This document shows, in pieces, positions 3,903-26,931 of a stretch of 64,000 bases of DNA (position 1 is its first letter; each line of letters begins with the position of its first letter). The notes under the pieces are model-generated. The model ran no database searches. It was not told the origin of the DNA and was given only the letters and a program-made list of their open reading frames with translations. The stretch spans positions 1 through 64,000 of the forward strand of contig JAFQYG010000003.1 in the NCBI GenBank assembly GCA_017406565.1, in the 5' to 3' direction. This DNA comes from Candidatus Saccharimonadota bacterium. Its GTDB lineage: Bacteria; Patescibacteriota; Saccharimonadia; Saccharimonadales; Saccharimonadaceae. The position numbers and the translations under genes were made by a program.

Positions 3903-4160
3903 ATGTACTTTAGCAAAAAAACGATTAATGCAGAAAGAGCTGCAATCAGAAAATACTACGAGAGTAAATATCAAAGGCTTATCAACAAGGAATACAACGA
4001 ATATATTGATTCACAGAAAGATGAAAAGCCCAAGTATGCTAGAGATTTTTTAAGGACAAAGACTAAATTCCTGATGCGTGAAAAGAATAATCTCATCGAT
4101 GATTTAGATCGAGCCAGCGATAAAAAAGTCGAAGAACTCTATCACAATATTTTCGGTTAA
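3903..4160 (+). CDS. Small basic/acidic helical protein, paralogue of 3492
   Basis: Unrecognised 85-residue, highly charged, tyrosine-rich protein. The start is set at the ATG at 3903 because a GAAGGGGGTGA Shine-Dalgarno lies just upstream; an in-frame ATG at 3885 falls on the predicted transcription start. It has its own consensus promoter and a terminator, like its neighbour at 3492, and shares with it the C-terminal pattern I-D-x-[IL]-x-R-A-x-D-x-x-V-E. No function can be assigned. Strong signals on such short genes suggest an abundant structural, regulatory or nucleic-acid-associated protein (inference). Confidence 0.75.
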   Translation: MYFSKKTINAERAAIRKYYESKYQRLINKEYNEYIDSQKDEKPKYARDFLRTKTKFLMREKNNLIDDLDRASDKKVEELYHNIFG

Positions 4161-5129: not shown

Positions 5130-5166
5130 AAAAAAGCCTCAGGTAAGGGTGGGCATCACCTGAGGC
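5130..5166 (-). terminator. Strong intrinsic terminator of the 5130-5438 RNA
   Basis: On the minus strand GCCTCAGGT pairs with ACCTGAGGC (9 bp) and is followed by six T. Confidence 0.9.
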
Positions 5167-5438
5167 TATTTTGGCCCTCTAACGCTTCACTACTATACCG
5201 GGTGAACCCCGGAGCGTAACCCACCTCACACAAATTGGGGCCCGCCGGTTAGAGGGATTGCTAAGCCTTCGAAAGTGGCCTTTCAAAGTGGAGGTAATAC
5301 TTATAAGCAATTAAACCATGAAGAAATTTAATGCCCGAAAGGGTTTCAAAAGCTCGCAACTTCTGCTATACTGGAAGTAGTATAGCTGAAATCATAACTT
5401 ATTTAGGTGCGGTGTGGCACGCTTTTTGCGTACCAACT
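5130..5438 (-). ncRNA. Structured ~309-nt non-coding RNA, family not identified
   Basis: A stretch without credible coding potential is bounded by a perfect TTGACA-N17-TATAAT promoter and a strong terminator, both on the minus strand. The RNA is rich in stems, from 5' to 3': GGTACGC/GCGTGCC with an A5 loop (5434-5416), CTATACT/AGTATAG (near 5385-5366), a 9-bp stem CTTTGAAAG/CTTTCGAAG with a GCCA loop (5288-5267) enclosed by ATTGCT/AGCAAT, CCCTCTAAC pairing at distance with GTTAGAGGG, ACGCT/AGCGT, and the hairpin CCGGG-GTTCA-CCCGG. I looked for and did not find RNase P core motifs (GAGGAAAGTCC), the tmRNA ends, the SRP domain IV core or a 6S-like rod. The length and strong signals suggest a housekeeping or abundant regulatory RNA. 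Confidence 0.75.
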
Positions 5439-5444
5439 GTCTTA

Positions 5445-5473
5445 ATTATAGCACAGGAGAATTAAAATGTCAA
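5445..5473 (-). promoter_or_regulatory. Consensus promoter of the 5130-5438 RNA, overlapping the dprA start
   Basis: Minus-strand TTGACA (5473-5468), 17-base spacer, TGC-TATAAT (5450-5445). The -35 box lies over the dprA start codon (5467-5469), so RNA-polymerase binding here could interfere with dprA transcription. Confidence 0.88.
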
Positions 5474-6453
5474 CACTTTTTAACAACTTTTTTGAAAAAA
5501 TCAACCAAATTTCACCCCTAGAGCACAATTTTACAGAGGTGTTAGACGCCATTGCGCTTAAGCCTAAAACATTGTTTTTTTATGGTAAATTACCACAAAA
5601 TGTGTCAAAAAATGGCAAAATGACTCGCCCCAAAACCGTCGCAATCGTTGGTTCTAGACATAACACTAGCTATGGCGAGGAAATCGCTTACAGACTCGCT
5701 TATGAGCTTGCCAAACATAATGTAATCATAGTTTCGGGTCTAGCCTACGGAATCGACTCAATCGCCCATAAGGGTTGTCTTGCAGCCGGTGGTAAGACGA
5801 TTGCCGTACTTGGTACCCCAATCGACCATATCTATCCAGCCAATCATAAAACCTTGGCTAGAGAAATTCTCCACCAGGATGGCGCCATCATTTCGGAATA
5901 TGCCCCTAAAACTCACGATTATTATGATTCCCCGCTCGCTCCGGGCGAATATTATGATGATGCTGGCAGTCGCACTCAAGATCCTAAGATTTCATTCTTA
6001 TATCGTAATCGCCTAATCTCTGGTTTATCCGATGTCGTAGTCGTAGTCGAAGCCGCCGAAAAATCCGGTTCGCTGAATACTGCCACCCACGCTTTGGAAC
6101 AAGGCAAAGATGTTTTTGCCGTACCAGGTAATATCACCAATCCCTATTCACAGGGTTGTAACAAGTTAATCAAACAGGGCGCCACTCCCTACACCACACC
6201 TAAAGATATTTTGGCACTTTTATTTCCAGAAGAGTATATCAAAAGGCATAAAAAAATGAGAGCCCAACGTCTCATCGGCGATACTGATGCCGAGACGCTT
6301 GTTCTCCAAGCTATTGCAAGTGGACTTCGCTCTGGTGAAGCCATCATGGAGTCCACCAAACTCCCACCCGAAGTCTTCAGCCAGACTGCCACACTTCTTG
6401 AAATCAAATCTCGCATTCATTCGCTCGGTATGAATAATTGGGGGCTAGTATAG
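5467..6453 (+). CDS. dprA: DNA processing protein DprA (Smf)
   Basis: RecA loader for incoming single-stranded DNA during natural transformation. The Rossmann-fold DprA domain shows VAIVGSRHNTSYGEE, IIVSGLAYGIDSIAH, AVLGTPIDHIYPANH, FLYRNRLISGLSD, EAAEKSGSLNTATHALEQG and VFAVPGNITNPYSQG, and a C-terminal DprA-type winged-helix region follows. Length (328) is normal for the short form. Between IISEYAP and FLYRNR there is an insertion of roughly 25 residues rich in Tyr, Asp and Pro. The start is supported by AGGAGA upstream. Presence of dprA fits DNA uptake in Saccharibacteria. The promoter of the opposing RNA overlaps its start. Confidence 0.95.
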   Translation: MSTLFNNFFEKINQISPLEHNFTEVLDAIALKPKTLFFYGKLPQNVSKNGKMTRPKTVAIVGSRHNTSYGEEIAYRLAYELAKHNVIIVSGLAYGIDSIAHKGCLAAGGKTIAVLGTPIDHIYPANHKTLAREILHQDGAIISEYAPKTHDYYDSPLAPGEYYDDAGSRTQDPKISFLYRNRLISGLSDVVVVVEAAEKSGSLNTATHALEQGKDVFAVPGNITNPYSQGCNKLIKQGATPYTTPKDILALLFPEEYIKRHKKMRAQRLIGDTDAETLVLQAIASGLRSGEAIMESTKLPPEVFSQTATLLEIKSRIHSLGMNNWGLV

Positions 6454-25859: not shown

Positions 25860-26825
25860 TTATTTATCCCAATCAAATCCTTCACCATAATGCCCATAAC
25901 AGGCGGTTTTTTCGTAGATTGGTCGCTTTAAATCCAAATACTTAATAATGCCATTTGGTGTCAAATCATAGCCCTCAATTTCTTCTGGTTTGCCATCAAT
26001 TATCACAGTTTTTTCTAAAGGCTCTGCGTAACCAATTGCATAAGCCAATCGCACAAGTACTTCATGCGCTTTACGTTTTCTAAGGTAATCCACCGCAATA
26101 CGACGTGCCATATAAGCTGCTGAGCGATCCACTTTAGATGGATCCTTGCCTGAATAACAACCACCACCAATTGCTACTCTGGGTCCATAGTTGTCAACAA
26201 TCAATTTGCGACCCGTAAGCCCAGTGTCTGCATCAAATCCACCTTGATTCCAGTCTCCTGCTGGGTTAATGTGTAACTCTAATTTACCAGATAGCTTGTT
26301 ATTTTTAACGAATTCACGTACTAGTTTCTCAAGCTCATCATGTGATACGTTTTGGAAGCTTGCTACAATAGAATCGATTGAACCATCAGGAGCAATCGTA
26401 ATTTGTGTTTTTCCATCATATGGATGTTTATCATAAATAAACTGGTTGAGACGACGACTCAATACTACTTCTAGTGGCAACATTTCAAGCGTTTCATCGC
26501 AGGCAAAACCAATCATAATTCCCTGGTCTCCAGCTCCACCTGTATCTACACCTTGGGCAATTTCTGGTGATTGCTTAACGATTTTAGTGTGAACCTCCAC
26601 ATCTTCACCCGCAATTCGATGCACAATTGCCGGGATGTCTACGTCTTTAGCTAGAGACGTTACTTCACCCGTCACAAATACTACACCATGCCCACCACAA
26701 GCCTCAGCAGCTACACGTGAGTTTGGGTCTTCTTTAAAATAAGCGTCCAAAATAGCGTCGCTAACTCTGTCGCATAATTTATCTGGATGTTTTGGAGAAA
26801 CGCTCTCCGCGGTTCGATAGAACAT
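25860..26825 (-). CDS. metK: S-adenosylmethionine synthetase
   Basis: Makes SAM from methionine and ATP. Motifs: ESVSPKHPDKLCDRVSDAILDA, the glycine-rich signature GGAGDQGIMIGFACDET, NPAGDWNQGGFDADTGLTGRK and GGGCYSGKDPSKVDRSAAY (P-loop-like and metal-binding regions). It is compact: 321 residues against about 380-400 for typical bacterial enzymes, yet both conserved signatures are present, so a shortened version rather than a broken one. Regulated by a SAM-type riboswitch whose 3' end runs into the Shine-Dalgarno and ATG. Confidence 0.96.
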   Translation of the reverse strand: MFYRTAESVSPKHPDKLCDRVSDAILDAYFKEDPNSRVAAEACGGHGVVFVTGEVTSLAKDVDIPAIVHRIAGEDVEVHTKIVKQSPEIAQGVDTGGAGDQGIMIGFACDETLEMLPLEVVLSRRLNQFIYDKHPYDGKTQITIAPDGSIDSIVASFQNVSHDELEKLVREFVKNNKLSGKLELHINPAGDWNQGGFDADTGLTGRKLIVDNYGPRVAIGGGCYSGKDPSKVDRSAAYMARRIAVDYLRKRKAHEVLVRLAYAIGYAEPLEKTVIIDGKPEEIEGYDLTPNGIIKYLDLKRPIYEKTACYGHYGEGFDWDK

Positions 26826-26912
26826 ATCTTTCCTTTCTGGTCGGAATTACCACCTTGGCTTATGCTAGGTTGGCAGGAGGTCATCGGGCCGTTCCCTCAC
26901 TCCTTCTTGATA
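26826..26912 (-). promoter_or_regulatory. SAM riboswitch (SAM-I/IV type) of metK
   Basis: The leader contains the S-box core in order: TATCAAGAAGGAG, AGGGAACGGCCCGATGA, CTCCTGCCAACC, AAGGTGGTAATTCC and GACCAGA. P2 forms by AGGAG/CTCCT. The 3' P1 strand (GATAT) would pair with ATATC and includes the A and T of the start codon, and the Shine-Dalgarno AAAGGAAAG lies inside the 3' flank. No terminator is seen between the aptamer and metK, so control is probably translational: SAM binding would hide the ribosome site. Confidence 0.88.
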
Positions 26913-26931
26913 TTAAATTGGTAACTTTATA

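Follow-up and report, generated by a model that had tools for sequence, protein, structure and literature searches.

An apparently undescribed structured RNA of the order Saccharimonadales and copies of its parts in phage contigs

An RNA gene divergent from dprA

The stretch of DNA analyzed here, which we call the window (64,000 nucleotides), carries on its minus strand an RNA gene of ∼309 nt (5438-5130), lying between a perfect promoter and a terminator and transcribed divergently from dprA (Table 1). These coordinates had been put forward in an initial annotation and proved correct, as did the placement of the gene opposite dprA, whose start codon is abutted by the −35 box of the RNA promoter. 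The promoter, TTGACA-N17-TATAAT with an extended −10 (TG), is as perfect as had been claimed, scoring 12/12, and is the sole perfect one between positions 4000 and 7000, where shuffles average 8 weaker sites. The terminator had been described as a 9-bp stem followed by T6; the terminator and the T6 are there, but the stem has 10 bp (5167-5158 with 5144-5135). The RNA folds with −109.9 kcal/mol (z = −5.15), a value matched by 0 of 100 dinucleotide shuffles, which together with the conserved and covarying homologues presented below upholds the view that it is structured. No credible ORF was found within the gene, in agreement with the earlier judgment of its coding potential, and a coding reading was rejected since a conserved ORF is absent. 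Elsewhere in the window, an ordinary S-adenosylmethionine (SAM) riboswitch at 26821-26916 (minus strand) sits directly upstream of metK (25860-26825).

TABLE 1 Coordinates of the RNA gene, its structural elements, and the neighboring gene in the window
Feature	Position	Strand	Basis or remark
RNA gene	5130..5438	−	Sequence, fold, homologues
Promoter	5445..5473	−	TTGACA 5473-5468; 17-nt spacer with TG; TATAAT 5450-5445; predicted start ∼5438
5' hairpin P1, GGTACGC/GCGTGCC	5416..5434	−	Alignment; stem sequence varies between species
Conserved single-stranded GCACCUAAAUAA (GCACCUUAUACCCCCUAUU in other genera)	5399..5410	−	GCACCUUAUACCCCCUAUU form copied by phage 5'-module mini-RNAs
Hairpin P2, GCTATACT/AGTATAGC (CUAAC/GUUAG in other genera)	5365..5386	−	
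Helix A, 5359-5345 UUGCGAGCUUUUGAA with 5273-5258 UUCGAAGGCUUAGCAA	5258..5359	−	Covariation
Small hairpin AAGU-AUUACCUCC-ACUU	5285..5302	−	Invariant C-rich loop (CUACCCUCC in other genera)
Helix D, CCCTCTAAC 5256-5248 with GTTAGAGGG 5183-5175	5175..5256	−	Covariation
Hairpin GUGUGA-GGUGGG-UUACGC	5214..5231	−	Loop GGUGGG 5225-5220, proposed partner of terminator loop
Hairpin E, CCGGGG/CCCGG	5198..5212	−	CCGGUG/CACCGG and CCGGA/UCCGG in relatives
Terminator hairpin AGCCTCAGGT-GATGCCCACCCTT-ACCTGAGGCT, then T6	5135..5167	−	Loop core UGCCCACCC at 5155-5147
dprA, divergent neighbor	5467..6453	+	Context only, outside the RNA

The initial annotation had reported no features of RNase P, tmRNA, signal recognition particle (SRP), or 6S RNA, and this held for each of the four. 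RNase P RNA (RF00010) and tmRNA (RF00023) were rejected as identities since the genome has its own, at G000:C6:118884-119218 (238 bits) and G000:C6:122637-122988 (95 bits), respectively. The 6S model (RF00013) has no match in the genus, and the fold is multidomain rather than a single long hairpin with a central bubble, so that 6S identity was likewise rejected, although the RNA could still be an analogue of 6S in function. SRP RNA was detected neither by two models (RF00169 and RF01854) nor by the Ffh-binding core motif GGAA...AGCAG, and tblastn with Escherichia coli Ffh and FtsY gave nothing significant in either of the two genomes searched, the window genome G000 (covered except for 0.7 kb) and G152 (800 of 845 kb), while the SecA control was found in the same searches. 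As Ffh and FtsY are missing from both genomes examined, it is very unlikely that the RNA is an SRP RNA; the SRP pathway itself seems to be missing in G000 and G152, given that Ffh, FtsY, and SRP RNA could not be found and SecA could.

A comparison with Rfam had also been proposed. Against Rfam 15 the RNA gene has no match at the gathering threshold and only chance matches up to E = 10, and distant copies searched at a permissive threshold likewise returned only chance matches. The raiA-motif RNA, or ModT (RF03072), was not matched by the window RNA at E values up to 10 or by other lineages at E values up to 5. Complementarity to rRNA, for which E. coli rRNA served as a proxy since that of G000 is not assembled, was limited to short matches of up to 10 nt with G-U pairs allowed. 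We found nothing on noncoding RNAs of Saccharibacteria in the literature, which is only weak evidence of novelty as open-access papers alone were covered. Judged by these sequence comparisons, the RNA belongs to no described family.

Conservation and predicted structure

By blastn, the RNA was recovered from 22 of 24 genomes in the genus, and the 16 other genera of the order that were searched gave no match. Two covariance models, R1 (220 positions) and R2 (built from the distant 5' domain), extend this distribution: among 198 genomes from the order Saccharimonadales, R1 matches 53 and R2 138, for a union of 161 that includes all 52 sampled genomes of the family. There is one match per genome, the exception being a weak second match in G077. 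When R2 was run on a sample of 380 genomes of the phylum, every match fell inside the order; both models are homemade and their E values rough. A 19-mer from the terminator loop, searched across ∼85,000 species genomes, was found almost only in Saccharibacteria records among the matches listed, and 78 of the first 80 loci carrying it match R1, with one more, L133, matching R2. A match in Ornatilinea (L145) was set aside as chance, as it lies inside an apparent coding region and has no extended stem. Across the order the RNA measures about 250 to 420 nt, and the promoter is kept along with it upstream of most homologues. Originally, two possibilities had been left standing: the RNA could be a housekeeping RNA that has diverged, or it could represent a new class of RNA in Saccharibacteria. 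The new class is the one supported, by covarying homologues throughout the order, occurrence once per genome, and the lack of an Rfam match.

Two side observations concern the homologous loci. In distant homologues (e.g., L065, L074, and L077), the −35 region of the promoter is often palindromic (TTGACAT-N-ATGTCAA), which gives the appearance of an operator overlapping it. At L190 and at G006:C5 82029-82873, extra copies of the terminator hairpin stand in tandem downstream of a full RNA.

The gene downstream of the window RNA is shared with none of the other 42 loci examined. What would be expected of a cis-acting riboswitch or leader, a common downstream ORF, is thus not met, and the RNA is therefore not a cis-element of that gene but an autonomous, trans-acting gene. 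Upstream, dprA is the divergent neighbor in 37 of 43 loci, which, with the −35 box abutting its start codon, could suggest that the RNA is a cis-regulator or divergent-promoter partner of dprA, linked to competence. We regard this as hardly tenable, since six loci with the RNA (e.g., L049, L050, L053, L055, L070, and L084) showed no dprA in the flank examined and phages copy the RNA without dprA.

The alignments bear out most of the pairings first proposed for the RNA: GGTACGC/GCGTGCC, CTATACT/AGTATAG, the long-range CCCTCTAAC/GTTAGAGGG, and CCGGG/CCCGG all hold in homologues. The proposed hairpin CTTTGAAAG-GCCA-CTTTCGAAG inside ATTGCT/AGCAAT does not, since its 3' strand pairs instead with UUGCGAGCUUUUGAA, forming helix A. 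The covariation check on aligned homologues that had been suggested came out in favor of helices A and D. Helix A shows double changes at 4 of 15 pairs when members of the genus are compared, and at 11 of 11 when different genera are; in helix D, both sides have changed in 4 of 8 pairs. The covariation score of the R2 structure is 0.432; shuffles give 0.190, and sliding the register makes the score far worse in every case. In the genus alignment, 98.2% of cells are paired, with 9 double-change pairs against a comparison value of 2.8. The structures were derived from the same sequences they are tested on, and the slid-register control is the fairer one. For P1, P2, and hairpin E, whose register varies, the support comes from inspection by eye. 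Three C-rich elements are conserved and unpaired: GCACCUAAAUAA/GCACCUUAUACCCCCUAUU, the loop AUUACCUCC/CUACCCUCC, and the terminator loop UGCCCACCC. Helix A reads GUUUUAGAGCG/CGYUCUAAAAC in loci from other families of the order (L237-L276), like the start of type II-A CRISPR repeats; this is probably a coincidence because the window genus has a different helix A sequence.

The terminator stem differs between lineages and its loop is fixed. An interior perfect complement of at least 6 nt to GCCCACCC is found in 97.8% of 180 distinct RNAs, compared to 10.1% of mononucleotide shuffles, and this G-rich complement shifts position between lineages with its complementarity kept: the window genus has it as the loop in GUGUGA-GGUGGG-UUACGC, and most other lineages have it as GGGUGGG immediately 5' to the second (3') strand of helix D. 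The terminator loop UGCCCACCC is thus predicted to fold back on a G-rich segment of the body as a pseudoknot, which we consider likely; it cannot be proven by covariation because both sides hardly vary, and the invariant loop could instead be recognized purely by a protein.

Copies of the two halves in phage contigs

The odd 19-mer match mentioned above, L133, is an Antrihabitans record (NZ_JAEMNW010000001.1, 1024001-1032000) with two separate fragments of the RNA, and it led us to scan IMG/VR. There, 60-odd phage contigs have the same terminator loop on stems that vary among the phages. We located the 19-mer, GGTGATGCCCACCCTTACC, in 28 viral contigs, its flanks adding 6.25 stem pairs on average versus 0.59 at random positions, with differing stem sequences; a −10 box of at least 5/6 lies just upstream in 50% versus 10% in controls. 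The loop form of the other families of the order, GCGGTGCCCACCCCCTC, was found in 36 viral contigs with a mean extra stem of 8.2. A control 17-mer of the window genus, the near-genus loop AAGTATTACCTCCACTT, gave 15 viral hits, none with the flanking structure of the RNA, and shows what chance hits look like. The phage hairpins lie in the sense of transcription in 50 of the 57 analyzed. Readings at the level of DNA, such as an attachment site or a replication-origin hairpin, are disfavored, and a role at the RNA level is favored, because the stems differ with compensation and because of this orientation.

The other half of the RNA is copied as well. The 5' domain stands alone, with helix A turned into a terminator, in L277, L337, L339, L133, and L343, and L340 has its elements in permuted order. 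L343 carries both halves as two neighboring small-RNA genes with a promoter and a terminator each, and L341 carries a nearly full-length copy plus a second hairpin. Phage mini-RNAs fold as predicted, with z values of −5.6 and −6.0. As far as sequence evidence can establish them, both the RNA family and its mimicry by phages may be taken as shown.

The carriers tested against PHROGs are real and diverse tailed phages, one of them phi29-like. That they infect Saccharibacteria is inferred only indirectly, from lineage-matched forms of the motif and from literature on shared phages. In L133, both modules of the Saccharibacteria-specific RNA are carried by an island that spans no more than ∼45 kb and has genes for portal, Erf, and recombinase proteins; its GC content is 54%, against 64% for the Antrihabitans contig around it. 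The island is prophage-like and would be a prophage in an actinobacterium. Phages common to both bacterial partners would explain this finding, but such sharing is not demonstrated here. The same hairpin also occurs in an actinobacterial isolate record, Arthrobacter terricola contig12 (L208), in a stretch related to viral contig L284, and in an Aeriscardovia metagenome-assembled genome (MAG) contig (L225), which is probably a phage binned with an actinobacterium since it is closely related to viral contig L292.

Possible roles and comparison with known systems

The loops stay intact in phages, so the copies must be of use to them, and the separate copying of the two halves by unrelated phages suggests some component of the cell that has to be captured or blocked by a phage. 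We propose a trans-acting RNA with a C-rich surface on which a partner docks, the phage modules titrating or recruiting that partner; with transcript, partner, and phenotype all inferred, we put the chances of this proposal at about even. The RNA would be a single-copy, probably constitutively transcribed molecule acting in trans. Three conserved C-rich single strands would be exposed on its outer surface: ACCUWA..., ACC(C)UCC in a loop, and UGCCCACCC in the loop of the terminator. A G-rich segment elsewhere in the molecule, GGUGGG or GGGUGGG, would either mask UGCCCACCC or be the site on which it docks. A partner in the cell, be it a protein or a second RNA, may recognize the surface formed by these C-rich elements, and the RNA may be the scaffold or regulator of a ribonucleoprotein. 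The phage modules would then either titrate the partner off the host RNA, as RNA anti-CRISPRs do with Cas proteins, or recruit it to phage transcripts.

The layout of the copies bears on this choice. Complete mini-genes consisting of promoter, hairpin, and T-run are found in L278, L281, L282, L295, and L297. About ten phage contigs share another layout, in which the hairpin lies 7 to 13 nt after one ORF and ∼65 to 73 nt before a scaffold-like ORF of ∼270 to 290 amino acids that has its own ribosome-binding site, and L291 and L294 are arranged likewise. Free mini-RNAs favor titration; hairpins in the intergenic stretches of structural operons or in operon leaders favor recruitment. It is conceivable, if rather unlikely, that the copies act by hijack and not as decoys, the phages recruiting the partner (e.g., an RNA-binding protein that stabilizes or translates transcripts) to their own mRNAs via the hairpin, with the host RNA merely the best natural ligand or storage form of that partner. 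The contigs with a hairpin before an ORF agree with this reading, but the five mini-RNAs, in which the T-run comes right after the hairpin, hold no message.

Two further alternatives to partner docking rest on base pairing. In one, the phage UGCCCACCC loop pairs in trans with the host GGGUGGG and breaks the pseudoknot, for which the perfect complementarity of 6 to 8 nt kept in nearly all host RNAs is an argument; it appears improbable to us, as it explains neither the phages that carry the 5' domain only nor the fixed loop bases outside the pairing. In the other, the C-rich loops block ribosome-binding sites, like those of the C-rich small RNAs of Firmicutes, and the copies in phages would then silence host genes or act as false antitoxins. 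A perfect match of 12 nt, AAGUGGAGGUAA, the complement of the ACCUCC hairpin, does lie over ribosome-binding sites at G000:C2:119840 (a 37-amino-acid membrane peptide) and C4:60297 (a serine recombinase). In G152 (800 kb), however, long complements are at chance level and outside leaders, and the conservation of the RNA reaches far past seed length. Genome-wide base pairing with mRNAs, examined in two genomes, is not convincing, and we think this second alternative very improbable.

Returning to partner docking, its broadest form is that the Saccharimonadales share, throughout the order, a ribonucleoprotein with an undescribed ornate RNA as its core, and that this harms or limits phages so widely that many unrelated ones, some of them also entering actinobacteria, have split the RNA into two decoy modules. 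We offer this only tentatively and lean against it. Deeply conserved structured RNAs usually mark a core cell function, as do the RNase P, tmRNA, 6S, and SRP RNAs. The present RNA is confined to the best-studied ultrasmall parasitic bacteria, in which no Ffh, FtsY, or SRP RNA was found (G000 and G152), and offers a concrete handle on their special cell biology. The phage copies are an independent sign of its importance, and the functional pieces that phages have cut out show what bait to use. Should the partner be an antiviral system, this would be an RNA-mimicry arms race outside CRISPR, in epibiotic bacteria.

Among known systems, the raiA-motif RNA, or ModT, is an abundant, trans-acting ornate RNA with a 7-bp pseudoknot and comFC as its usual neighbor (PMC11706538, PMC11751092). 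The RNA described here resembles it in being a single trans-acting ornate RNA with a predicted pseudoknot, conservation on an order-to-phylum scale, and a competence gene adjoining (comFC there, dprA here), but differs in its domain order, the use of the terminator loop in that predicted pseudoknot, its phylum, and the lack of an Rfam match. GOLLD, ROOL, and OLE are large, highly structured RNAs of largely unknown function, some of them found in phages. Structures have been reported for large ornate RNAs of this group (PMC12286853). Our RNA has no sequence or Rfam match to them, and the phages here carry fragments, with the near-full-length copy in L341 as the exception.

C-rich regulatory RNAs of the RsaI/RsaOG type combine C-rich loops with a pseudoknot near the terminator. 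Our RNA shares the C-rich loops and, as predicted, the 3' pseudoknot; unlike them it is much larger, with domains conserved well past a seed, and no homology was found. RNA anti-CRISPRs (Racr, solitary repeat units) are promoter-driven small RNAs with which phages imitate the portion of a host RNA that binds protein (PMC10651486). Here the host RNA is not a CRISPR repeat and decoy action has not been shown, but phage-encoded, promoter-driven copies of part of a host RNA are present all the same. What is new is that phage contigs copy the two halves of the RNA separately, as tiny RNAs or as hairpins, and for these copies the RNA anti-CRISPRs would, by analogy, be the nearest precedent.
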